From a virus: a stretch of DNA of 20,953 nucleotides. Each line of letters starts with the position of its first letter. Within the stretch, counting starts at the first letter, position 1. The translations under genes were made by a program, and so were the position numbers. This document shows, one piece after another, positions 1 through 20,953 of the stretch. The notes under the pieces are model-generated. The model was given only the letters and a program-made list of their open reading frames with translations. It did no database searches and had not been told where the DNA came from. The DNA is taken from positions 1 to 20,953 of the IMG/VR virus record IMGVR_UViG_3300017763_006365; one strand, 5' to 3'.

Positions 1-1008
1 ACCTTTTACTTCAGTCAATCACTAGGAGTAGAAGGTAAGTTCTTTAGAGATTTAATAAATCTAAAGGCTCAACCAGAAATAAGACACAGAAGCGTTGATA
101 ATAAAACATTAATATTTGGTAACCTTGGTATCAGAGGTCAATATGAAATAACACCAAAACTCATTCTTAATTCTACCGATTCATTTTCTCATTTAGAAAG
201 AGAGCCAAGTGACATTGATGATGATCTAGATGTGACTTACTTCATGTATAAGAGTTCGTACATGCTGACGTGGAAACCTCGGCATCTCTTAAAAGTTAAA
301 GGTGGTTACGAAAACCATATTAAACGTTGGTCAGAAAACTTACCAGTAGGAGTTGGCGCTGAGTTAACTAACGGCGACTTTACTAAAGATGCATTTACGT
401 TTGGCGCAGAACAAATTATTGGCAAACGTTTTATTCTAGAGTTAATAGGCAAGAAATCATTTTTAGATTATAGCGGAGTTCGTGGAGCAATTGATACTAA
501 TACATATTATGCACAATTTTCGTACATAATGAATCCATCAACTATCATAAAAATAAACTATGGCGTGATCGATGCATTGATTGAAGATCAATATGGTGCG
601 CTAACTGAATATTCGACTCCCACGTATGGGGCAAATATAACATACTTTACCGAAAAGGGCACAGTGATTTTATTAGGCACCGTGTACGAAGTGCTAGATT
701 CATCTGTTGCGTATTGGAATATGAAAGAGAATTTAAAAACATCTCTTATGATGAAATATCCAATAACGCCAAAACTTGAAGTAAACGTAATGGGCGCCCA
801 TCTCCTTACCTCATACAAAGATATTGGTAATCGATACAATGCTGGGTTAGAACGCGAAGAAGAAGTCTTTATGTCGAGTATAACTTTTTCTTGGAAATAC
901 AACGAGAGCCACTATGCTGAAATTGGTTATCAAGGTTTACATCTATTGAACAAAGATGCCGACGTTTTTAAGAATAAAGCATTCGTTGGGTATCGCTGGA
1001 ATTTTTAA
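1..1008 (+). CDS. Outer-membrane beta-barrel protein, 5' end missing
   Basis: The reading frame is open from base 1, so this is the C-terminal 335 residues of a larger protein; a GTG at 232 is internal and not the real start. The visible part is almost entirely short amphipathic strands alternating polar and hydrophobic/aromatic residues, separated by turns rich in N, D and G. It ends in the strand FVGYRWNF with a terminal phenylalanine, the usual C-terminal signature recognised by the BAM machinery. This pattern fits a porin-like barrel of the Gram-negative outer membrane, possibly of the putative beta-barrel porin type. No signal peptide can be judged because the N-terminus lies outside. 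Its stop overlaps the stop of the convergent minus-strand gene by three bases, so it is packed like its phage neighbours. A role in surface conversion or superinfection exclusion is inference only. Confidence 0.7.
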   Translation, partial: TFYFSQSLGVEGKFFRDLINLKAQPEIRHRSVDNKTLIFGNLGIRGQYEITPKLILNSTDSFSHLEREPSDIDDDLDVTYFMYKSSYMLTWKPRHLLKVKGGYENHIKRWSENLPVGVGAELTNGDFTKDAFTFGAEQIIGKRFILELIGKKSFLDYSGVRGAIDTNTYYAQFSYIMNPSTIIKINYGVIDALIEDQYGALTEYSTPTYGANITYFTEKGTVILLGTVYEVLDSSVAYWNMKENLKTSLMMKYPITPKLEVNVMGAHLLTSYKDIGNRYNAGLEREEEVFMSSITFSWKYNESHYAEIGYQGLHLLNKDADVFKNKAFVGYRWNF

Positions 1009-2776: not shown

Positions 2777-3793
2777 ATGGCAGAAGGAATAAATAAAAAA
2801 GTAGCATCTGAGGCGATGTCTCTGGAGCCTAGTCAGATATTGGAATTTTATCTGATATATTATGGTTGGCCAGAAGATCAAAACAGCGTGCTAGCTTTAA
2901 CTCCTATGCGGCCTGGGATGTCGCGCCCCAATGGTAGCTCCACCCTATCAGCTAGTAGAATAGTGTGGCAAGGTCAAGAATTTGTATCCTACCCAATGGA
3001 AACTAGCGGCTTTGAAGTAAAGGGCGACAATAGCCTCCCTAGGCCGAGATTAAAAGTAGCAAATATAGAATATGCCATATCAAAGTATTTAAAAGTGCAT
3101 AATAATTTAATTGGGGCAAAAGTGGTAAGAAAAAGGACTTTTGCTAGATTTTTAGATGATGTCAATTTCCCAGCAGGAAAAAATCCATATTGGAATGTAG
3201 ATACTCAAAATAGCGAGGCTTCTTCGACTTCCTATTTACCAGATCAAACTTATTATATAAACAGGAGAACTACAGAAACAAAAGATCTAGTAGAGTTAGA
3301 ATTATCTACTGTTTTCGAATTAGATAATAAATTTTTACCAAACAGAAATGTTTATTCAAAGTATTGCACATGGATATATAGAGGATGCGGGTGCCTTTAC
3401 AATAGTATACCTATAAGGACAACAAACGATGAACTATTTAAAGATTCTAGTGGTACTGTCGTACCTATCGACAAAGCAAACTATAAAAATAGATGGGATT
3501 CCTTGGAGACATACGGTAAGGGGGATCATGTATATATAGAAATAGCCAACCATGACATTTCTGATGATGATTCAGAAAGCTCTATAAATGGCGCTTCGAT
3601 AAAACCCTTGCGAACTTTTTATGTCTGTGTCGAATCTAGCGTAAGTGGAAATGAAAATTTCCCGCCAATATCCGACAAATGGCAAAGAGATGAATGCTCT
3701 AAAAAAATATCAGCTTGTAAGCTAAGATTTGGCAAAAAAGGATTAAGATTTGGAGGATTTCCAGGAACTCATGCATACCAACCCAGAGGATAG
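2777..3793 (+). CDS. L: Minor tail protein L homologue (Fe-S tail tip protein)
   Basis: Resembles lambda gpL, the tail-tip protein known to bind an iron-sulfur cluster. Residues 1-190 give the body, including PRPRLKVAN (89-96) and INRRTTETKDLVELELS (161-177). The C-terminal part has the family's cysteines: YCTWIYRGCGC (C197, C204, C206) and DECSKKISACKLRFG (C307, C314), ending in LRFGGFPG. At 338 residues it is longer than lambda gpL (about 232). The extra length lies largely between the cysteine pairs at about 236-306, where W240, YGKGDHVY, FYVCVE and P-x-S-D-K-W resemble a CBM5/12-like carbohydrate-binding fold; this is inference. It heads the tail-tip block and overlaps the K-like gene. 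An AAAGAG four bases before the ATG is a weak ribosome site. Confidence 0.85.
   Translation: MAEGINKKVASEAMSLEPSQILEFYLIYYGWPEDQNSVLALTPMRPGMSRPNGSSTLSASRIVWQGQEFVSYPMETSGFEVKGDNSLPRPRLKVANIEYAISKYLKVHNNLIGAKVVRKRTFARFLDDVNFPAGKNPYWNVDTQNSEASSTSYLPDQTYYINRRTTETKDLVELELSTVFELDNKFLPNRNVYSKYCTWIYRGCGCLYNSIPIRTTNDELFKDSSGTVVPIDKANYKNRWDSLETYGKGDHVYIEIANHDISDDDSESSINGASIKPLRTFYVCVESSVSGNENFPPISDKWQRDECSKKISACKLRFGKKGLRFGGFPGTHAYQPRG
3763..3766 (+). promoter_or_regulatory. Ribosome binding site deciding the K start
   Basis: AGGA lies four bases before the ATG at 3771, inside the end of the L gene. It favours this ATG over the upstream in-frame TTG at 3750. Confidence 0.6.
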
Positions 3794-4163
3794 TCTTGTA
3801 AATAGTTTAGTCGAATACGCCAATACAGACTTAAAAAAAGAAGTTTGCGGCTTTATTTGTTATAAAAATAATGAACTATTTTTTAAACCAGCGAAAAATC
3901 ATTCGCATGATGATGATATATTTTTAATTAATCCAGCGGATTTTTTGCAGGTAAAATTAAACGAGGGTTTATTAGCTATATTCCATACTCATGTAAGCGG
4001 TAGAGAGGATCCATCTGAATACGACATACAGAATTCAAAAAATTGCCTTTACCCGTTTTTAATATATTCTTTGGCTACAGAGAGGTTTCATTTATTTGAT
4101 ATGCCCAATTTCAAAAGATCAGAAAAAGGTGTAATAATGTTAAAGGAGCTTTTGGATGACTAA
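3771..4163 (+). CDS. K: Tail assembly protein K homologue, JAMM peptidase only
   Basis: A 130-residue protein carrying the JAMM/MPN metalloprotease signature: E24 in KEVCGF, then HTHVSGREDPSEYD, where H72 and H74 are followed by seven residues, S82, two residues and D85. These are the zinc ligands and catalytic residues of the fold. Lambda gpK joins such a JAMM domain to an NlpC/P60 peptidase; here the protein stops after the JAMM domain, so the second domain is missing or encoded elsewhere. In lambda-like phages K acts in assembly of the tail tip, probably through proteolysis or peptidoglycan contact. The start overlaps the L gene by 23 bases and the end overlaps the I-like gene by 8, so translation is likely coupled. 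Confidence 0.85.
   Translation: MHTNPEDSLVNSLVEYANTDLKKEVCGFICYKNNELFFKPAKNHSHDDDIFLINPADFLQVKLNEGLLAIFHTHVSGREDPSEYDIQNSKNCLYPFLIYSLATERFHLFDMPNFKRSEKGVIMLKELLDD
4143..4148 (+). promoter_or_regulatory. Strong Shine-Dalgarno for the I-like gene
   Basis: AAGGAG seven bases before the ATG at 4156, within the K-like gene. It is the best ribosome site in the window and supports a host that uses Shine-Dalgarno pairing. Confidence 0.7.
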
Positions 4164-4752
4164 TGTAATTATACACGGAGAATTTGGAGAAATTTATGGA
4201 ACAAATCATAAATTTAAAGTAAGTAAGCTTTTAGAGATTACTAATGCTTTGCAGGCGAATAATCCAGGAGTTAGAGATTTTTTGCTTTCTAAATTTAAAG
4301 AGGGTTTGAGTTATGCATTTATAGACCCCAAAAACCCAAATAAAAAATGGGAAACAGTAGACGAATTATCTTCAGCTAACGCTCCCGAAGAAATACATAT
4401 TGTCCCAACCATAACTGGCGCGTTTGTTTTTACTGCGATAGCGGCCGCTGTAGTGGGTATCGGCGGCTTTGTGGCGGGCGCTTTAGGCGCTTTGGGAACG
4501 GCTTTAGCAAGTGGTGGCTTTTTAGCTAATTTGGCCGTTGGAATGTTAATTCAAGGGATTATGTCTTTACTGTTTCCAATTGAAACCCCTAAACCCCAAA
4601 CTGCAGAAAGTAAAATAGATATGTCTAGTTATATTTTTACTAATTTAGAAAATAATGCAGTTCAGGGATTCCCAGTGCCATTGCTATATGGAGAGCTTCG
4701 AGTTGGCTCCAATGTTATTTCAACAAATGTCACTAGTGCAGATTTAGGATAA
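4156..4752 (+). CDS. I: Tail assembly protein I homologue
   Basis: Resembles lambda gpI. The N-terminal 80 residues look like a beta-grasp domain (VIIHGEFGEIYG at 4-15, the helix LLEITNALQANNPGVRDFL at 25-43). Next come HIVPTITG (81-88) and a long glycine/alanine-rich hydrophobic stretch (about 89-141) typical of this family and able to insert in or cross a membrane. The C-terminal part contains the hallmark QGFPVPLLYGELRVGS (170-185). Its length of 198 is close to the lambda protein. It acts with K and J in tail-tip maturation; its exact role is unclear even in lambda. The stop shares one base with the J start (TAATG). Confidence 0.85.
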   Translation: MTNVIIHGEFGEIYGTNHKFKVSKLLEITNALQANNPGVRDFLLSKFKEGLSYAFIDPKNPNKKWETVDELSSANAPEEIHIVPTITGAFVFTAIAAAVVGIGGFVAGALGALGTALASGGFLANLAVGMLIQGIMSLLFPIETPKPQTAESKIDMSSYIFTNLENNAVQGFPVPLLYGELRVGSNVISTNVTSADLG

Positions 4753-7700
4753 TGGGTTTTTATAAGAATATATTTAAGAAAAAAGCAATTATTGCTGGTA
4801 GGAGTAAGGGAGCTTCACCTTCTTACTTGATGCCGCCAGACGGAAGTCAAACAAAGCAAGGGTATCAGATATATGAGGCGATAGATTTAATCTGTGAAGG
4901 CGAAGTCGAAGGTTTTGTCAATCAAGAGGGTAAAACTTTACAGGGGACAAGAGCCATGAAAAATTTTAACCAAGAGCAAAACGCTATTGGGAATGCCACT
5001 TTACCTATTGATCAAGGAATTTATTTTAATGATATAGCGCTAAGAGATGTCGATAATAATTCGACCCATTCTAAGTATAATCTTGAATTCAAATCAGGAA
5101 GAATTATGCAGGGTAATTCTTCTATCGTACATCATCCAGGAAAACTAACTAAATTATCGGTTCCGATTAAAGGTCCATATAATATGGCGGCCGTATACGA
5201 GACAAGGTACAGGTGGTGGGGCGAGTCCTATCAAGTTGTCGTTAATAATAATGGCGCTAGAACAGGTAGTGGAAGTAGAGACATAAGAACTGAAGGAACT
5301 TCAGCAAGAAATTTCGTCTCTTGGCAAAATTATGTACCGATAGAAAGAGCTGCTAAACCATATACATACACAAACTATGATAGAGATATAGATTCGATAG
5401 ATATAGGTCTACAAATAGATGGATTAAGCGATACAAAATCATTTTCTACTAAAAGCGAAAATCAAGCGGGTAAAAGTAAAATGGGTACGCCACTGCCATT
5501 AACAATAACTTTTCAGGTCACAACTGGTAAAGCAGATAAAGATGGTATCGTAACAAGTTCTAATGCTCGCTTTACAGTTAGGCCAGGAAAGGGCAAAACA
5601 GTTGGAGATGGAAACGGAAGGGTGGCGGTTAGAGGAATTATTACAGCCCCATATACCATCACACTAGAAGGCATTCATCTACCTACGATGTCTGATAGTG
5701 ACTTGTATAATTTTGTAAAGGTAGAGAAGGTACAGCATGAAACAATTTCTAATTTAATTAGAAGGGACGCTGGGGTAGGGACAGTAACAGAAAAATATCT
5801 CGATACATATTACTATCCTGGAAGTTGTTATGTAGCAAGCCAGATAGATTCTCAATATTTTCCACAAGTTCCAGCTAGGACGTTTAGACTTAAAGGCAAA
5901 AAAATAAAAATACCCTCTAATTATAACCCAACAAATGCTGATGGAACTGATAGGAGATTTTCAGATTTGCTACCAGCCTCATCGCAGGTTACTTCTTTTA
6001 CGGTTTCAAATGACGATGGAGGGAATAATTCGAACGACGCTGTAGGAACTTTCGCCATAGATGGAGCTACCGAATTAGGTTCTAAAAAATGGATATCATC
6101 TTCAAACGGCCATACTATAAGAAAAGTACAAAATGACAATAATATCTTTGTTTGGGTTTATAGAGATAGCGATAACGATCCCTTTTTTGTTTCAGAGCGC
6201 ATTCCAAATGCGACCACAACCTCTCAGAACTATCCGTGGCAAGTTTCCTCGAACTGGGCTCATTTTACAAATGGGCTCACCGAAATCGAGAGCTTTAATG
6301 AATTAATATTTTCTAATTTTGCGCCCACTGTAAATGGCAATATAGGACAGCAGATCTATTCAAATAATGGTCGATGGGATGGAAATTTTAAATACGCTTG
6401 GTCGGATAATCCAGCTTGGATATATTACGATCTTCTAACTAATAAAAGATATGGTTTGGGATCTTATTTACGGGATATAGACATTATAGATAAATGGACT
6501 CTATATGAAATAGGAATGTATTGCGATGCCGTAACAATGAATGACGGAAGCTATACTACCAATGATATGGGAGGCGCTGGTAAGTTTATCGGAGTGGACG
6601 ACGGATTTGGTGGACTTGAGCCTAGGTTTAGTTGTAATATATTGATAAAAGATCAAACCAACGCTTTTGATGCTATTCAGAATTTAGCTAGATCATTTAG
6701 GGCGATGACATATTTTAATAATTCTTGCGTCTCAGTCAGGGTAGACAGACCATATCTTTTTGAAGACATTAATAACACTTCAAATCCAGTATCAGCTAAA
6801 AATAAATTCCCATCTCATCTAATATTTAATAATTTGAATATCAAAGATGGAATGTTTTCCTACGCAGATGTAGACAGGACAACAAAGTTATCGGCTGTAG
6901 AAGTTTCTTATTTAGATAAAAGAAATAATTTCACATCACAAACAGAATATGTAGAAGATCCTGAAGCTATAAAATATGTAGGATTGAATTTTAAACAAAT
7001 AGAGGGAGTTGGAGTCACCTCAAAAGCTCAAGCTCACAGGTTGGCAAAATACATTTTATTTGAATCGCAAAATACTACAGAAACAATATCTTTTAATGCT
7101 GGATTTGAAGCTCTTTTAATACAACCAGGCGATATCATAAGAGTTGAAGATGAGATGAGAAATTTTACTCGAAACTATGGAACAGTTTTGGGCACAAGCG
7201 GAACCAGCAATTACAGTAACCCAGATCAATCTACAAATAATATAGGTCAAGGGCCGTCAGCTATAATAGTCGAACCAGCTATAGGGAGTGATTTAACTGA
7301 CTATGTAACTGGAGGGAATATACATTTATATAATCCGATAGGTAAGTCTGGAATTGAAGATTTTTATAGAAATCCTAGTTCAAATAGCGAACTGTATAAG
7401 GAAATCCATAACCCGCAAATAATCTCTTTAAAAATAAAAGATACTAGTCCTGGTCAGACAAATGTTAGTTATGAAATTATAGATAGCGGTGTTGCTATAT
7501 TTATAAACGGAGGAGATGGCCAATGGTTCTCAGAAAAAGATGCAAATATAAAACACGGAACGGTATATAATATTGATTCAAGTGGTAGAGACCCAAAATA
7601 TTATAAAGTATTAAACATAGAAGAAGATAAAAATGCAGGGTTTAATGTATCAGCTACAATACACCATACTGGGAAATTTAAATTTGTAGAAGAAAATGTA

Positions 7701-10700
7701 TCTTTTGATTTAGAGACAGGCACATTCCAACCGAATCTTAATGTAACAGAGGTAAGTAGGCCTAATCCACCACTTACTGTTAGTACACCCACCACCACCG
7801 CGGGCAGTAATAGATCTTTAAATCTAAATTTTACAGTAACTGACCCAGCTGACAAAGTACCAGACAAATATATAGTTATTTTAGAAGAGCCCGACTCTAC
7901 TACGATTGTTAGCGAACATTTTAAAAGCAATAGCACTCAAACAAATATAGTATTGAGTGGGGATTCAAAAATAGACCAAATAGGAGATTATTCGATAAGT
8001 GTGTTTTCTGAGATAACGACCCCACTAATTAGTAGATCACTTCAAGGAGTTACGGTTGATTTTAGCACTCAAACAAGCGATTTTAATTTCAACGCCCAAG
8101 AAGCTTTTACTGAGTATTCAAATATTTTTATAGAAACAGATTTTAGTTCTACATTTAACAATGCGGCCGAGACTGGAGTTGCACAAAATTCTTTTTTTGA
8201 AAATGACAGCTCAATAAATGCAGTTGTCAATTTAGAATTTGAAGATATATTTGGGAATGTAGGAAATGAAGTATTAAACACTGTAACCTCACAAACCATA
8301 AACTTGTTAGATTCTCAAGGAAATTCTAAATCGGGTAATTTTAAAACGCTTGGCAGTGATAGTTCTTTCACAATAACTAATCGCGAACTTAATGAAGCGT
8401 TTCAGTATACTGGAGATTCAAAATATAGAATACCTGAATCTGTAAAATTTGAAGTTGATAGTTTCCAATTGGCCTCGGGCGCTACAAGTAAAAATATTAC
8501 ATTAAATGCTGGGTTTACAGAAAAACCTGCCGTATTTACTCAACAAAAAGTCAGCGGATCTTTCACGGAAATTGGATATAAACCACTAGGAAGAACTTCT
8601 GTAAGCTCTGATTCTTTTCTAGTCACTTCAGAGGGCAATAATTTTGAAACTAATTATTCGTATGTAGCTTCTCAAACTGGAAGATTTACTATTGATTCCA
8701 AAAGCATAGAGGTTGGGTTTGTAACAAAAAATAATACTTCGGCAAACCAGGAGGTACAATTCAGCCAAGCATTCTCATCGACACCTACTATTATTATACA
8801 ACTACAAGACAGGGGTAGCAGTAGCAGCCAATCAAGATACTCTGAAACTTGTATAACTCAAGCGTCTGCCACTAAATTTTTCTTCAAAGCTTTTCAGGAT
8901 GATAATAATGCTGCGGGCGGAGACGGTCAGTATGCATATATAGCTGTAGATGAATTGGCGTTCAATAACACTACGTCAAGCGACTTGCCTCAAGGAGTAT
9001 TAAATTATGCGGCGACTGGAATTTCTAATTACTTTTTCAGGGATCCAATTTTAAATCAATTTAACGGTTCAGCAACTTCTGTTACAAATAGTAGGTATAA
9101 CCACGATCAATACGCGGTTTTGTGCCAAAGGTCTGGAGTTGACACTGATCTAGATAACAAAACTTTTTTAGTTCACGAGATTGACGGTGAAAATAGATTA
9201 CATCAACACATGCTTACAAGCGGACTTGATAATGGCATAAGAACCAGTGAAACCAATGGCGCGAACAATCATATTTTATTAACTGGAAATGATTTAAATG
9301 TAGGGACTTCTGATTTCACACTGTTTGCTTTTGTAAGATTTGACCCAGGCCTTAACGGTAAACAATACTTACTAGAATCTCATAAAAATGGAACTGGAAT
9401 AGCTTGGTTCCAGTCTGGCGACGGAAAAAACTATGTAAATTTAAATGGAGTAGATTATTTAGCAGTTACTGGTAATGGGGGAGCATCATTAAATGATGGA
9501 AATATTCATTCGTTGCAGGTGTTTGTAGATAGAGACAATGGTTTAACTGGCTGGTCGCATACAAACCCAGCAGGTTCTTTATCCGTACAAAAAACAATTA
9601 ATACAAGAATAATTGAACAATCTACTGGATTCTCTGTAGGCTCTTTAGGCTCAACTAACGTTGGGAGCGGAATGCCTCAAAATCCACACAGTTTTGATGG
9701 TAGCTATAGAGGAGGCGGAAACTCCTATCAACACATAGTATCATCAAATAGCACGGAAATAAACGCAAGTGGTTCTGAAAGTGTTTGGATTTTGGTAGAT
9801 AATGATTCTTCTACCCCATACGCCCATACTCCAATAGCTTGGTCAGGAAGCGAAGTGGTATACTCCGATGTCACTGCTTTTAGGGTTAATAATACCGATG
9901 GAGGAGATGATGCAGACGATGGAGTAGGAAATTTTACCATAGATACTAGTAATCCCCCTGCCCCATTCGGTTCTAAAAAATGGAAAGATACTTCAAATGG
10001 ACATTTTATAGAAAAAAGAGTCCGTCAAGGATTTCCTGGAGAATATGTTTGGGCTTATGGGGACTCAGACGATCAAGATCCATTTTTTGTTTCAGAAGTA
10101 ATTCCAGGCGCAACCGCCAATTCCCAAGAATATCCTTGGGACGTTGATTCAAGATGGGCTCATTTTACAAATGGGAGCAACTTGCTGGAGGGTTTTGATA
10201 CATTAACATTTTCTAATTTTAAAGATTCTCAAAACAATTTAACATCACATAGTCATCCTAAAAATGTTCAGAATTGGACTGGAGCAAAATTTTATACTGG
10301 ACTCAGTGTATCTAATGTTGGGACTGGAATGAAAGATAACAGCCATGGCGATTTCGATGGCACATATACTGGACACGCTGATTTGTATGTTAATACAACA
10401 ACTTCTGGACTAAGGATCAAGAAGACTGGGGCTAATAATACTTGGATATTATGTGATGATGATCCAGCTCATACTTATAAAGATCATAATGCAATTGCAT
10501 GGTCTGGAGGACAAAATATAAGGTTCCCATGGAATGTAAGTACTTGGTCAGGAGGGTCCACAATAACAAATGGAATAATTACAGATAGTAGTGCTCCAGG
10601 ATTCTCGCAGTTATTATCAGGAAAATATGCTGGAACTTCTGCTCCCCTCATCGGTGGACTAAGTCACGAAAGTTTCGACGCTCAAACAGGATTTAAAGTA

Positions 10701-11027
10701 TTAGGGAATTCAGAATTACCTGGTAATGCTTTAACAAGTGGTCATGTAATCGAGCATATAGGATTATCAACTGGCAACGATATTACTGATAATTATATAA
10801 CCAATCATCTTAGTAATCCAAGCCAAGCTAGAAATGGTTTAGATCATCAAGTAAGTACAAAATTTATATTAAATGTAAATGCTGAAAAATTCTCTGAAGA
10901 TATTTCTACTAATAATACAGCTAGCGGAAGCATAGTAGGATCTGTAGAAAGATCTGAAGCAATAATAGACCGAGGGAAGAATGGTGATTTTAACTTTATA
11001 CAAATAGGAGTAACAGGTACATTATGA
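4752..11027 (+). CDS. J: Tail tip attachment / receptor-binding protein J
   Basis: A 2091-residue central tip protein. The J core is clear: YEAIDLICEGEVEGF near residue 45, IPSNYNP (387-393), GRWDGNFKYAWSDNPAW from 540, LLTNKRYGLG, TSKAQAHRLA (756-765) and the tail-hub motif QPGDII (791-796). All match lambda gpJ segments in order. About 140 residues are inserted between NYNP and GRWDG, where lambda has fewer than ten. Downstream are an FnIII-like stretch (about 1003-1110), two H-type-lectin-like segments (about 1235-1404), a LamG-like region (about 1505-1632), then repeats B-A-B (1628-1919) and a unique end. Lambda gpJ is 1132 residues, so the extra length is mainly adhesive modules. It probably forms the tail hub and binds the host receptor. 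An AGGA lies two bases before the ATG. Confidence 0.92.
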   Translation: MGFYKNIFKKKAIIAGRSKGASPSYLMPPDGSQTKQGYQIYEAIDLICEGEVEGFVNQEGKTLQGTRAMKNFNQEQNAIGNATLPIDQGIYFNDIALRDVDNNSTHSKYNLEFKSGRIMQGNSSIVHHPGKLTKLSVPIKGPYNMAAVYETRYRWWGESYQVVVNNNGARTGSGSRDIRTEGTSARNFVSWQNYVPIERAAKPYTYTNYDRDIDSIDIGLQIDGLSDTKSFSTKSENQAGKSKMGTPLPLTITFQVTTGKADKDGIVTSSNARFTVRPGKGKTVGDGNGRVAVRGIITAPYTITLEGIHLPTMSDSDLYNFVKVEKVQHETISNLIRRDAGVGTVTEKYLDTYYYPGSCYVASQIDSQYFPQVPARTFRLKGKKIKIPSNYNPTNADGTDRRFSDLLPASSQVTSFTVSNDDGGNNSNDAVGTFAIDGATELGSKKWISSSNGHTIRKVQNDNNIFVWVYRDSDNDPFFVSERIPNATTTSQNYPWQVSSNWAHFTNGLTEIESFNELIFSNFAPTVNGNIGQQIYSNNGRWDGNFKYAWSDNPAWIYYDLLTNKRYGLGSYLRDIDIIDKWTLYEIGMYCDAVTMNDGSYTTNDMGGAGKFIGVDDGFGGLEPRFSCNILIKDQTNAFDAIQNLARSFRAMTYFNNSCVSVRVDRPYLFEDINNTSNPVSAKNKFPSHLIFNNLNIKDGMFSYADVDRTTKLSAVEVSYLDKRNNFTSQTEYVEDPEAIKYVGLNFKQIEGVGVTSKAQAHRLAKYILFESQNTTETISFNAGFEALLIQPGDIIRVEDEMRNFTRNYGTVLGTSGTSNYSNPDQSTNNIGQGPSAIIVEPAIGSDLTDYVTGGNIHLYNPIGKSGIEDFYRNPSSNSELYKEIHNPQIISLKIKDTSPGQTNVSYEIIDSGVAIFINGGDGQWFSEKDANIKHGTVYNIDSSGRDPKYYKVLNIEEDKNAGFNVSATIHHTGKFKFVEENVSFDLETGTFQPNLNVTEVSRPNPPLTVSTPTTTAGSNRSLNLNFTVTDPADKVPDKYIVILEEPDSTTIVSEHFKSNSTQTNIVLSGDSKIDQIGDYSISVFSEITTPLISRSLQGVTVDFSTQTSDFNFNAQEAFTEYSNIFIETDFSSTFNNAAETGVAQNSFFENDSSINAVVNLEFEDIFGNVGNEVLNTVTSQTINLLDSQGNSKSGNFKTLGSDSSFTITNRELNEAFQYTGDSKYRIPESVKFEVDSFQLASGATSKNITLNAGFTEKPAVFTQQKVSGSFTEIGYKPLGRTSVSSDSFLVTSEGNNFETNYSYVASQTGRFTIDSKSIEVGFVTKNNTSANQEVQFSQAFSSTPTIIIQLQDRGSSSSQSRYSETCITQASATKFFFKAFQDDNNAAGGDGQYAYIAVDELAFNNTTSSDLPQGVLNYAATGISNYFFRDPILNQFNGSATSVTNSRYNHDQYAVLCQRSGVDTDLDNKTFLVHEIDGENRLHQHMLTSGLDNGIRTSETNGANNHILLTGNDLNVGTSDFTLFAFVRFDPGLNGKQYLLESHKNGTGIAWFQSGDGKNYVNLNGVDYLAVTGNGGASLNDGNIHSLQVFVDRDNGLTGWSHTNPAGSLSVQKTINTRIIEQSTGFSVGSLGSTNVGSGMPQNPHSFDGSYRGGGNSYQHIVSSNSTEINASGSESVWILVDNDSSTPYAHTPIAWSGSEVVYSDVTAFRVNNTDGGDDADDGVGNFTIDTSNPPAPFGSKKWKDTSNGHFIEKRVRQGFPGEYVWAYGDSDDQDPFFVSEVIPGATANSQEYPWDVDSRWAHFTNGSNLLEGFDTLTFSNFKDSQNNLTSHSHPKNVQNWTGAKFYTGLSVSNVGTGMKDNSHGDFDGTYTGHADLYVNTTTSGLRIKKTGANNTWILCDDDPAHTYKDHNAIAWSGGQNIRFPWNVSTWSGGSTITNGIITDSSAPGFSQLLSGKYAGTSAPLIGGLSHESFDAQTGFKVLGNSELPGNALTSGHVIEHIGLSTGNDITDNYITNHLSNPSQARNGLDHQVSTKFILNVNAEKFSEDISTNNTASGSIVGSVERSEAIIDRGKNGDFNFIQIGVTGTL
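5988..6320 (+). repeat. Repeat A, copy 1, inserted in J core
   Basis: Encodes J residues 413-523. It begins VTSFTV and contains GSKKW, SNGH, DPFFVSE, a YPW motif and WAHFTNG, and ends SNF. It aligns along its whole length with copy 2 at 9870-10220, at roughly 60% identical residues by hand alignment. Some DNA stretches of 16-21 bases are identical, so the duplication is fairly young or maintained by recombination. Confidence 0.85.
9633..9848 (+). repeat. Repeat B, copy 1, in J
   Basis: Encodes J residues 1628-1699. It shares the pattern NVG-S/T-GM, FDG-S/T-Y-x-G, a WIL-x-D-x-D strand and a closing IAWSG with copy 2 (10293-10508). It lies directly before repeat A copy 2. Confidence 0.75.
9870..10220 (+). 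repeat. Repeat A, copy 2, in J C-terminal region
   Basis: Encodes J residues 1707-1823. It begins VTAFRV, contains GSKKW, SNGH, DPFFVSE, the YPW motif and WAHFTNG, and ends SNF. It is the partner of the copy inserted in the J core and is flanked by the two B repeats. Confidence 0.85.
10293..10508 (+). repeat. Repeat B, copy 2, in J
   Basis: Encodes J residues 1848-1919, with SNVGTGM, FDGTYTG, TWILCDDD and IAWSG. It follows repeat A copy 2, giving the order B-A-B. Confidence 0.75.
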
Positions 11028-11962
11028 TATTTAATGAAATAGTTATAGGGCAACATCCAGCTGAGTCTGGTTATATATTAGAATGTCTTGTGAGAGGAAA
11101 CGAAGATCCAAATGAATTTCCGATAGGATCGGGTAGACTTAAAGTAGAGTTTCCTAAATTTGACGTAACTGGATTAGAATTTCAAGGAAAAAATCTTTTA
11201 TTTCTGCCTACAGGAGAAGAAGAAGAAACAAGGCTTATGGACAGTATAATTGTTCTAGAAAAAAATATAAATTTAAGGGCTTTCTTTTCTGGAGATTTAA
11301 ATGAAATAGGTGATGGACTAGCTGTTCAAAATGTAAAAAATATAGATGTATACACTGGAGACGCCCCAGATTTTACGCCAGATACATTAGATTTTTCAAA
11401 TCGGGTGGCAGAATTTCCTGTTACTTTAAGCGCTGGAGAACCATCTTTTGATATTAATATCACTGACACAGAAATAGATGGCAGAGTAGAAGAAAATCTT
11501 CACTACAAAGTAATTCCAACTGATTATCTAACCTTTGGAGAGGAGTCGGCTTCTGTAAGTGGGCTCATGTTTAGTGGGTTTGATAAATTTCCTAAAATAA
11601 ATGAGGCAAATGTAACTAACAATCAGTTTTTAATATCTAGATCAAATGGAAATGATGCATTTGCGGGTGCGGGTGAGCTAGTAGAAATATTTACAGGATG
11701 TACTATAATAATTGATGGCACAATACCATTAGATTTTTATGGAACTTTTAGAATTAGAACAGCCCAGGAGATAAGAATATCTGGAGGGTATGATGCCGAT
11801 GGAGCGCAAGTCACTCTACAAAGTACTATTCAAAACTTTCCCGTGAGTAATAATATGATTACAATAGATGCAAGTCCCGACAATGAATTTACCGAATTTG
11901 ATATTGCCAACTTATTAGACGAGAATAATGAAAGGCAAGCATACATAGTAGGCGACTTATAA
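11024..11962 (+). CDS. Tail-tip associated beta-rich protein, 312 aa
   Basis: Starts in a 4-base ATGA overlap with the J stop, so it is translationally coupled to J and probably part of the tail tip or its fibres. I do not recognise the family. It is acidic and strand-rich. Around residues 140-190, segments such as PSFDINITDTEIDGRVEENL and YKVIPTDYLTFGEES resemble an Ig-like or Calx-beta-like sandwich. Residues 220-290 look like another beta domain, and the protein ends in an acidic helix (NLLDENNERQ). No catalytic motif, signal peptide or membrane segment is seen. In lambda the genes after J encode fibre and outer-membrane proteins, which fits an accessory tail role here. The end overlaps the stop of the convergent GNAT gene by six bases. 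Confidence 0.75.
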   Translation: MIFNEIVIGQHPAESGYILECLVRGNEDPNEFPIGSGRLKVEFPKFDVTGLEFQGKNLLFLPTGEEEETRLMDSIIVLEKNINLRAFFSGDLNEIGDGLAVQNVKNIDVYTGDAPDFTPDTLDFSNRVAEFPVTLSAGEPSFDINITDTEIDGRVEENLHYKVIPTDYLTFGEESASVSGLMFSGFDKFPKINEANVTNNQFLISRSNGNDAFAGAGELVEIFTGCTIIIDGTIPLDFYGTFRIRTAQEIRISGGYDADGAQVTLQSTIQNFPVSNNMITIDASPDNEFTEFDIANLLDENNERQAYIVGDL

Positions 11963-17894: not shown

Positions 17895-19394
17895 TTAAAA
17901 TCCTATTTTACCTGATAATGGAACATTTTTACCGCTTCTAATGTTTTCTTTAGAAGTATTTAATTTATATGCAAATATATCATATATTAATTCAATGTCA
18001 ACAGGAAAAACCTTGTTTTCAAGACTTTTTCCCCATTTTTCTATTATTTTAGCGTAAGTTTTTTGAAACTTGGCGTATTGGGCGGTTTCTTGAAATTTAG
18101 CATCCATTAACTTTGGTTCCATATTTTTAGCTTTTTGCGGGCGAATAAAATTTATTTTTTTGCTCCTAGCCCCAGACTCATCCAAAACATCAAAAGCCTT
18201 GTCTGGAAATTTTTTATTTGTTAAATAAATATCACAAAGATCTATTATTTTAGCAAGCACATCTTCTTTGTACTCAACTTGATGGAATTTTTCATAAGAT
18301 TTTTTCGCGACTTTAATTAATTCAAAAGTTTCTTCTTTGGTCGGCTCTTTAATATCAATCTTTTCAAAACGACGATTTAAGGCAGAATCTTTTTTAAAAA
18401 ATCTTTCGTATTCTTCTTTAGTGGTAGCCCCAACACATGAAATATCGCCCCTAGATAGGGCTGGCTTCATTATGTTCGCAAAGTCTAAGCCCCCGCCGTC
18501 TGAGCCTCCTCCAGCGCCAATTATATTATGGACTTCGTCAATAAAAAGAATGTAATGATTATCTGATGATAGCTGATCTAGAATTTTTTTTAGTTTTTCT
18601 TCCATCTGTCCTCTGTATATAGTACCAGCAAGAACCGAAGCTAAGTCCAGTGATAGTATTTTTTTATGCAAGAGTAAATCTGGGCATTGCCTTTTTAATG
18701 TTTTTTCAGCCATGCCCTCTACAATGGCAGTTTTGCCAACCCCAGCTTCTCCTACTAGAATTACATTGCTTTTATTTTTTTTCAAAAGAACTTCAAAGAT
18801 TCTATCTATTTCTTCATCTCTGCCAAAAATTTCAAAATCTCCTCTTTCACTGATTTTTTCATTTAAGTCTTCGCACCAATCTGAAATGTCAGATGTGGGT
18901 TCGTTGTTCGGCTTTTTATTTGATTGATTTGATGCTACTAACTCTTTTGGTGTCCCATTTTTTATAGTATTTTTTAGATCCTTGTTGATTTTTTCTAAAT
19001 CGACATCAAGAGAAAGCAGAAAATCGCATATCTCTTCTCGAGTACTGAGTATTACTAACAGTATATGATCTATGCCTACAAATTCGTCCTTTAATTTCGA
19101 AGATAACTTAACAGAGTCTTCTAAAATGTTTTGTATTTCTTTGGAATATATTTTATGTTTTCGCTTGGGCTCTTTGTAGCAAGTTAGAGCGTACTCAATA
19201 CTTTTTTTAATCCCTTCTTTAATAATTCCATTAGAACTAAATACGTGATCTATATTATTGTGATTAAAATTTAATATTGAAAGTATAAGATGCAAATCTA
19301 TTACTTTTAAGTGACCAAATGTTTCAGCCACAAACTCAGAATCCTTTAAGGATTTTTTTGCTGAAGGGGTTAAATTAAATTTTGATAAATCCAT
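17895..19394 (-). CDS. Single-ring ClpA/ClpC-like AAA+ ATPase
   Basis: A 499-residue protein. Residues 1-147 form a Clp N-domain with two helical repeats (the second has FVGIDHILLVIL, 105-116). After a polar linker comes one AAA+ module: FGRDEEIDRI (190-199), Walker A GEAGVGKT (215-222), YRGQMEEKLKKIL, Walker B ILFIDEVH (282-289), sensor 1 GATTKEEY (322-329), arginine fingers at R341-R342 (LNRRFE) and sensor-2 region FPDKAFDVLDESGA (396-409). The protein stops soon after, so the second AAA+ domain of ClpA/B/C, including the internal ClpP-binding loop, is absent. The last residues are SGKIGF, and IGF is the tripeptide that ClpX uses to dock on ClpP. The start shares one base with the DnaE stop. 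A role in protein unfolding or remodelling is likely; the target is unknown. Confidence 0.88.
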   Translation of the reverse strand: MDLSKFNLTPSAKKSLKDSEFVAETFGHLKVIDLHLILSILNFNHNNIDHVFSSNGIIKEGIKKSIEYALTCYKEPKRKHKIYSKEIQNILEDSVKLSSKLKDEFVGIDHILLVILSTREEICDFLLSLDVDLEKINKDLKNTIKNGTPKELVASNQSNKKPNNEPTSDISDWCEDLNEKISERGDFEIFGRDEEIDRIFEVLLKKNKSNVILVGEAGVGKTAIVEGMAEKTLKRQCPDLLLHKKILSLDLASVLAGTIYRGQMEEKLKKILDQLSSDNHYILFIDEVHNIIGAGGGSDGGGLDFANIMKPALSRGDISCVGATTKEEYERFFKKDSALNRRFEKIDIKEPTKEETFELIKVAKKSYEKFHQVEYKEDVLAKIIDLCDIYLTNKKFPDKAFDVLDESGARSKKINFIRPQKAKNMEPKLMDAKFQETAQYAKFQKTYAKIIEKWGKSLENKVFPVDIELIYDIFAYKLNTSKENIRSGKNVPLSGKIGF

Positions 19395-20953
19395 TACTTT
19401 ATTTCTGATAGTTTTCTATAAATTTTCTCATCAAGGATTGTAAGCTTTTCTCCAAAGATCACATCGTCACCTTTACTTCCATAAACAAAAACGATCTCCC
19501 CTTCTTTGGGTTTTTTGCCCCCATTGTTTAAGTAGTTATCTAGCGTAGAAGATCTTCTATTATTCATAAGCATAAAATTAACCTTGCCGAAGTCGTCTTG
19601 GACTTCTGCTCTCATGTATTTATTACCACTTCTGCTTGTTCTTGAAATGCAATCTGTGACCACTCCTACAAATTTAACTCTATCATGATCGGCTATAGAT
19701 TTCATTTCTAAGCTATTGTAAAGGTTGCCAGAGTTTTTAAAAACTTTTTTAATTTCTGTAGAGTGACTATATCCTAGATACTTTCTCTCAAAGAACCAGT
19801 TGGCAAACTCAAGGTGATTTTTATTTTTTTCATATATATCCTTGTAGCCCTTATATTTCTTTTTAAATGTTTGGAAGCGTGATGGCTTCATAATTGGCCT
19901 GCCATCATCGGCCACTAAAGAATCCTTTATGATTGCTTGGATAGTATTAAGAACATCATAATTATACTCTTCTCCGATTTGAATAATGTTTCTCTTCTCT
20001 CTGTCAGTAAGTATGTTAAAGGACTGAGCCTCTAAGACTAGGCGACAGCGATTAGGTAACGATGAATTTGTTTCGCAAAAAGAGTCCATTGTCCCGCCTT
20101 GAATCAGCCCAGAAAGTACGCCAATATTAATGCCTGACTGCTTGGCATTGGTAAATATATCATACTTATTTTGATTAGTCTCTTGAGCTTTTCTAAAATC
20201 AACTAAGTTCTCTAGAGTCTTCTCAGATACCCCTTTAACGCTGTTAACTCCGTATCTAATGTTGCGACCCTCAATGCCAAAGTTAATATCTGACTTGGAC
20301 AAATCTGGTGGCAGAAGCTTTATATCAAACTGGCACAACTCTTGACTGATAAGAGCAATCTCTGCATGAGAGTCTGGCTCATGCTTAGTCATTTTAAGCA
20401 AAGATAGAAAGAACTCTTGTGGATGCTTAAACTTTAGGTAAGTTGTAATTGCCGCGAGAATAGCATAACTAATTGAGTGCGACTTATTAAAAGAGTAATT
20501 CGCTGAATCTTCTGCGACCTTCCATAAAACTTCGCCGACTTCTTTATCTAAATTTTTCTCTTCGACTTTTTGCTCAATCTTAGCTTTCCAAGCTGGCATT
20601 TGATCTACCTTCTTTTTACCCACAATTCTGCGGAGCTGTTCTGACTCATCAAGAGTAAATCCGACCTTAACGGCCATCTTCATTAACTGCTCTTGATATA
20701 GGGGGATACCGCCAGTATAAGAGAGGATATCGTCAAAGAATTCATTAACTGACTGGAATCTAGAGGTACTTGCATAGTCAGCATATACATCCAGATAGTC
20801 AAGTGCACCAGGGCGAGCAATCGCAACCACAGCAGACAACTCCTCCAGGTTTTTAGGAGCGATTTTTTTACAGACCTTAAAGTTTGTATCCGCTTCAATC
20901 TGGAACAAACCCTTTGGTGCCTCAATGAATTTGAAGTTTTCATATATTTCTGG
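19394..20953 (-). CDS. dnaE: DNA polymerase III alpha subunit (DnaE), C-terminal part
   Basis: The frame is open to the right edge, so the N-terminal PHP and palm regions lie outside; 519 residues are visible (a TTG at 20908 is internal). Family-C polymerase signatures follow in order: KGLFQIEAD, AIARPGALD, LYQEQLMKMA, LRRIVGKKK and the fingers motif YSFNKSHSISYAILAA with TYLKFKHPQEFF. Next come the helix-hairpin-helix region LLPPDLSKSDINFGIE to YGVNSVKGVSEKTLE, and a C-terminal OB fold (VKFVGVVTDCISRTSRSGNKYM, about 40 residues of strands with QDDFGKVNFMLM). This is the replicative polymerase, which would work with the host sliding clamp or its own. No proofreading domain is visible in this part. 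Translation of the Clp gene is coupled to it by a TAATG stop/start. Confidence 0.95.
   Translation of the reverse strand, partial: PEIYENFKFIEAPKGLFQIEADTNFKVCKKIAPKNLEELSAVVAIARPGALDYLDVYADYASTSRFQSVNEFFDDILSYTGGIPLYQEQLMKMAVKVGFTLDESEQLRRIVGKKKVDQMPAWKAKIEQKVEEKNLDKEVGEVLWKVAEDSANYSFNKSHSISYAILAAITTYLKFKHPQEFFLSLLKMTKHEPDSHAEIALISQELCQFDIKLLPPDLSKSDINFGIEGRNIRYGVNSVKGVSEKTLENLVDFRKAQETNQNKYDIFTNAKQSGINIGVLSGLIQGGTMDSFCETNSSLPNRCRLVLEAQSFNILTDREKRNIIQIGEEYNYDVLNTIQAIIKDSLVADDGRPIMKPSRFQTFKKKYKGYKDIYEKNKNHLEFANWFFERKYLGYSHSTEIKKVFKNSGNLYNSLEMKSIADHDRVKFVGVVTDCISRTSRSGNKYMRAEVQDDFGKVNFMLMNNRRSSTLDNYLNNGGKKPKEGEIVFVYGSKGDDVIFGEKLTILDEKIYRKLSEIK

Follow-up and report, generated by a model that had tools for sequence, protein, structure and literature searches.

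Lambda binds its receptor through the fibre end, and the resulting change travels to the hub, in which HDII, HDIII and HDII-ins shift as the tube opens (PMC11101478). The tube is closed by the HDII insertion in T5 and the gene transfer agent (GTA) (PMC10038345). FNIII-A in lambda gpJ is a module inserted in a hub protein (PMC10721106), the "peripheral" domain of the RcGTA hub points outward (PMC7296036), and the roseophage R4C megatron has a fibre-binding domain along with a CBM-like domain that extends beyond the peripheral domain (PMC10276861). The Tal insertion of SW13/TP-778L contains two lysin modules and projects away from the trimer axis (PMC9437275), and CBMs are present in the "evolved" Dits of lactic-acid-bacteria phages (PMC9437275, PMC9692632). 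Architectures similar to the one described here are already known in these Dit, Tal and megatron proteins. What is new is the A domain, located at a loop that unrelated domains also occupy in separate lineages. We found no paper on domains in this loop among the open-licence literature.

The window is the whole stretch of viral DNA that was analysed, 20,953 nucleotides (IMG/VR record IMGVR_UViG_3300017763_006365), and it contains the L-K-I-J gene order of the lambda gpJ family. The window J is a member of this family by sequence (phrog_31, 4.4e-100; PF13550, Phage-tail_3, 1.1e-14), and it has the gene order, hub fold, and NYNP and WDG motifs in common with lambda gpJ (8IYK, 8XCG; PMC10721106, PMC11101478). 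VIA-align placed J36–820 on lambda gpJ 8XCG with a Z score of 24.2 over 480 residues at 3.4 Å and 30% identity. The AlphaFold model of the hub (830 residues, 59 sequences) has pLDDT values mostly between 80 and 94, and values of 31–64 at J400–530. Apart from the insert, the hub is modeled as an ordinary gpJ hub with the HDII/HDII-insertion/HDIII/HDIV fold. The coordinates of these features are collected in Table 1.

Table 1. Tail-tip genes of the window and the motifs, domains and repeats of J. Positions are nucleotides of the window.
Feature	Position	Strand	Evidence
gpL-like tail-tip protein	2777–3793	+	PF05100 Phage_tail_L 1.6e-43; phrog_18
gpK-like protein, cut down to the JAB/Mov34 domain	3750–4163	+	PF14464 Prok-JAB 6.9e-8; phrog_30
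gpI-like tail assembly/plug protein	4156–4752	+	phrog_32 7.9e-37
J, lambda gpJ-like hub and central fibre, 2091 aa	4752–11027	+	phrog_31, PF13550, lambda gpJ structural match
NYNP motif, end of HDII-insertion module, J390–393	5919–5930	+	alignment
Net insert versus insert-less relatives, about J405–529	5964–6338	+	protein and DNA alignments
A domain, hub copy, J413–523	5988–6320	+	dN/dS 0.28 against L009
WDG motif, J542–544, opens the segment leading into the universal hub core	6375–6383	+	alignment, structural matches
Hub core after the loop, J547–821	6390–7214	+	VgrG, gp27-like and Tal structure matches start at about J547–552
B repeat 1, fibre C terminus, J1623–1703	9618–9860	+	
A domain, fibre copy, J1707–1823, between the two B repeats	9870–10220	+	56–57% identical to hub copy
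B repeat 2, J1847–1923	10290–10520	+	

The gpK-like protein has only 137 residues and matches just a JAB domain, whereas lambda K has a peptidase half as well. Beside the tail genes, window positions 1–1008 encode a 335-residue C-terminal fragment that resembles an outer-membrane beta-barrel and ends in FVGYRWNF; it matches neither Pfam nor PHROG families. Running opposite to the tail genes, on the minus strand (17895–20953), are a DNA polymerase III alpha-like gene and a gene for a Clp-like AAA protein containing a Clp_N domain. In the fibre part of J, residues 1333–1376 (8748–8879) match the H-type lectin family PF09458 with an E value of 0.023, which is below the cut-off.

The NYNP and WDG motifs of the window J are separated by 148 residues, in agreement with the first-pass annotation, which put the spacing at about 149. 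That annotation also had lambda reading NYDP followed by WDG after fewer than ten residues. The short spacing is correct, as lambda gpJ (PSNYNPQTRQYSGIWDG; NYNP-QTRQYSGI-WDG) has an 8-residue loop, its extra domains being located at other sites (FNIII-A at 72–215 and a beta-sandwich at 483–569), but the lambda motif is spelled NYNP, and NYDP is found in several other phages. A search using the J segment that follows the loop, with the insert absent from the query, identified 25 relatives at 61–90% identity. The loop, measured from the end of NYxP to the conserved WDG, is 25–34 residues long in all of them except L009 (the same as L003), where it has 145. The basal loop of the clade is about 20 residues longer than that of lambda (NADGTDRRFSSDGTTRGNxIYxG), and in these sequence comparisons the baseline for insert size is the insert-less relatives and not lambda. 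Because the loop of the relatives already has 25–34 residues, the window has a net insert of about 115–120 residues, and the extra segment is confirmed. The insert is bounded by TDRRFS (J399–404) on the left and GQQIY (J532–536) on the right, and the DNA alignment shows that it is in frame and clean. An assembly artefact was considered and ruled out by the presence of the same insert at the same place in another contig, L009.

The insert contains a complete domain of about 110 residues, as had been noticed at first pass, and a second copy of this A domain is found at the fibre end. The A domain at the same position in the L009 hub loop is 61–63% identical to the window hub copy; the L009 fibre has one B repeat and no A. 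These three copies are the known A domains. Single-sequence and alignment patterns detected no others in IMG/VR viral contigs, and searches of species genomes and of 50,697 phage records returned none. The A domain has no match in Pfam, PHROG, NCBIfam or PDB sequences and no hit to a lectin, CBM or other adhesin family. The AlphaFold model of A alone, computed from three sequences, has a pLDDT of 46 and is unusable. The B repeats are about 75 residues long and number one to five at the C terminus of the J fibre (L004, 9262–10311; window, 9618–10520); searches of Pfam, PDB sequences and cultured phages returned nothing similar to them. Comparison of A with B by hhalign gave a colinear alignment with an E value of 0.08 and 28% identity.

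An intein or another self-removing element would also be inserted in frame between conserved motifs, as this segment is. No intein or mobile-element family was matched, however, and the homologue of the insert is an ordinary fibre domain that lacks the flanking conserved hub motifs. We consider this explanation extremely improbable.

Substitution rates were compared between the window and L009. The A domain has a dS of 1.02 and a dN/dS of 0.28, compared to 0.91 and 0.23 for the J hub before the loop, 0.78 and 0.07 for the hub after the loop, and 0.92 and 0.29 for the 580 J residues following the hub. The dS of A is like that of the rest of J and its dN/dS is 0.28, which makes joint descent of A and J since the split between the window and L009 probable. 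On these values A is a constrained domain, kept by purifying selection and evolving faster than the hub core. The J tree puts the window and L009 in one group, modestly supported (SH-aLRT 81). A is carried patchily: the nearest single row to the window by identity is L004 (89–90%), which does not have the insert, and A is therefore dispensable for this hub.

The distribution of inserts was examined in a census of 189 distinct loops drawn, like our other loop samples, from top-scoring lists, so that the counts are not unbiased frequencies. Ninety loops are short and lambda-like, 77 are moderately extended, one has 50 residues, and 21 have at least 100 extra residues; a short loop is a frequent trait of the gpJ family and not a defining one. 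The 21 long loops are of three kinds: A (2 loops), a VWA-like domain of about 225 residues (15 loops), and beta-rich inserts (4 loops, one of 472 residues). The VWA-like and beta-rich inserts share with A the loop and the protein family, but they are unrelated domains, mostly of about 225 residues, on other branches. A search with the VWA-like domain returned 106 loci, and in all of the best 80 the domain occupies the NYxP–WDG loop; 77 of these have both flanks, 3 are cut upstream by the contig end, and 48 are distinct. In bacterial and archaeal genome records, the loop is short in 76 of 80 J copies and moderately extended in the other 4, and none has a large insert. None of the three insert kinds has a match in the 50,697 records of the cultured-phage collection. 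The insert in the window had been called unusual, which holds in that most gpJ homologues have no insert, but some other uncultured phages have large domains unrelated to A at this position.

Each kind of insert lies on one branch of the J tree, with support of 81 for A, 100 for the VWA-like inserts (counting L209, which falls inside this branch, as VWA-like) and 99 for the beta-rich inserts (L227 was not placed with its insert-bearing copy). The location of the three kinds on separate branches indicates at least three separate gains. The presence of A in only two of the distinct loops, together with 67% identity between the hub and fibre copies at the DNA level, would fit a tolerated passenger that recombined from the fibre repeats and has little function. 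The dN/dS of A between the window and L009, measured at a dS of about 1 and similar to that of the J segment after the hub, argues that the domain is maintained, and we judge the passenger explanation very unlikely.

Several other loci in the survey have distinctive organizations. Five contigs (L173, L224, L227, L130 and L216) have two J-like open reading frames each; in three of them (L173, L224 and L227) a beta-rich insert is present in one copy, and the loop of the second copy is plain. The J frame of L154, L132, L206 and other VWA-like loci starts only about 100–125 residues before the loop, and a separate upstream open reading frame seems to encode the N-terminal hub module in this lineage. 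Extended-loop J relatives were found in metagenome-assembled genome contigs labelled Flavobacteriaceae, Verrucomicrobiales and Lokiarchaeota (L256, L257 and L258), labels that may reflect the binning of phage contigs. The 50-residue loop of intermediate length is in L149 (5848–5997) and is possibly a different small insert.

Profile comparison was used to characterize the inserts other than A. The VWA-like insert aligned with 15 cellular VWA sequences (hhalign E 8.7e-5, probability 60%) over its C-terminal third, and the other pairs in the same comparison had E values of 0.055 or worse. Its best Pfam match (0.011) was below the cut-off, the NCBIfam match was also sub-threshold, and a PF00092 (VWA) search of the records with this insert gave no match. 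Where VWA domains have the MIDAS motif DxSxS, most members have DQNxN instead. These comparisons and the position of the motif are suggestive of a VWA identity for the insert. The term beta-rich is our reading of the residues in the other inserts, for which profile comparison identified no relatives. A LamG/ConA identity was plausible by eye, but it was rejected as PF13385 gave no support and the profile comparison had an E value of 0.17.

The position of the loop in the hub was deduced from the structural matches. The VgrG, gp27-like and Tal matches begin at about J547–552, directly after WDG. Because these general hub matches start only past this motif, the loop is placed at the seam at which the siphophage HDII-insertion module joins the universal HDII-HDIII-HDIV core, a position that may explain its tolerance of insertions. 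The first-pass annotation had the insertion within the conserved core of the hub. It does lie between two motifs conserved in the hub, but it is at the seam, ahead of the universal core. The suggestion that the insert places a binding domain near the tail axis is not supported, as the domains in the nearest analogues project outward (PMC7296036, PMC10276861, PMC9437275).

The GTA-type hubs are a further close parallel. The RcGTA chain 6tba_8A matches the J hub with a Z score of 12.9, and J beyond the loop is homologous to the C-terminal hub part of the R4C megatron, which follows the TIM barrel (profile E 1.4e-8, probability 95.5%). Profile comparison aimed at mapping the N-terminal part of the R4C megatron onto J residue by residue gave no signal. 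The large peripheral domain of the GTA and R4C megatrons lies between the adhesin-like and central domains (PMC7296036, PMC10276861), hence between the same two hub parts; it is, however, a TIM barrel of about 500 residues without NYNP and WDG motifs, and the equivalence of the loop would follow from domain order. By this analogy, GTA-type hubs probably carry the TIM barrel near the same junction. The evolved Dit and functionalised Tal proteins likewise have binding or lytic modules projecting outward from ring or hub proteins, and the window J resembles them in having an extra tail-tip domain (PMC9437275, PMC9692632). They differ in belonging to phages of Gram-positive hosts, in having the Tal insertion between sub-domains 3 and 4 and the Dit CBMs in the galectin domain, and in using other module families.

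The location of the loop raises a structural or regulatory role for hub A, in which it would brace the J, L or I subunits or tune hub opening. The loop adjoins the gpJ parts that move in opening, HDII, HDIII and HDII-ins (PMC11101478), and the HDII insertion is what closes the tube in T5 and GTA (PMC10038345). The same domain, however, recurs within the repeats of the fibre tip, at a distance from the hub, and the loop of the relatives holds unrelated domains or none, which is unexpected for a fixed hub interface. We view this role as unlikely. A could instead be a docking platform for another virion protein, such as a side fibre or the protein encoded immediately downstream of J (11024–11962). 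This gene adjoins J in L003/L009 too, and the R4C megatron provides a precedent for a fibre-binding domain (PMC10276861). A docking function would require the same partner at the fibre copy of A, and we think it a decidedly unlikely one.

The analogies with outward-projecting modules suggest that hub A is an accessory module, probably binding the cell surface and likely facing outward. We give an even chance to the reading that the loop is an acceptor site in several lineages and that hub A is an accessory, outward-facing secondary adhesin. The loop joining the HDII-insertion module to the universal hub core would have become an acceptor site for extra domains. Lambda J is a trimer, from which we infer three hub A and three fibre A domains per tail. 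That the fibre end has a second A copy speaks for one ligand-binding function shared by both sites, and hub A would most likely serve as a secondary or low-specificity adhesin. First contact with the cell would be made by the fibre end with its A domain. After closure of the tip on the envelope, hub A, located at the tip base and turned outward, would attach to surface ligands of the same kind. Bound hub A would then hold the hub down during opening. The copy number, outward orientation, ligand binding and timing in this scheme are all what we infer from the comparisons above. A broader and more tentative proposal, which we rate a little short of even, is that the NYxP–WDG loop is a general acceptor site where at least three unrelated kinds of domain have been independently placed as a hub-borne second adhesin, matching the fibre-tip module in the phage of the window, with the GTA TIM barrel as a fourth case.

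These data pinpoint, in a widespread family of siphophage hubs, a candidate acceptor loop that is used in nature. The diversity of its inserts is so far visible only in metagenomes. The window and L004, with about 90% identity over the hub core, are a natural pair with and without the domain. Such pairs make it testable how a hub-borne module acts in adsorption and how a hub may gain a domain while keeping its opening mechanism.
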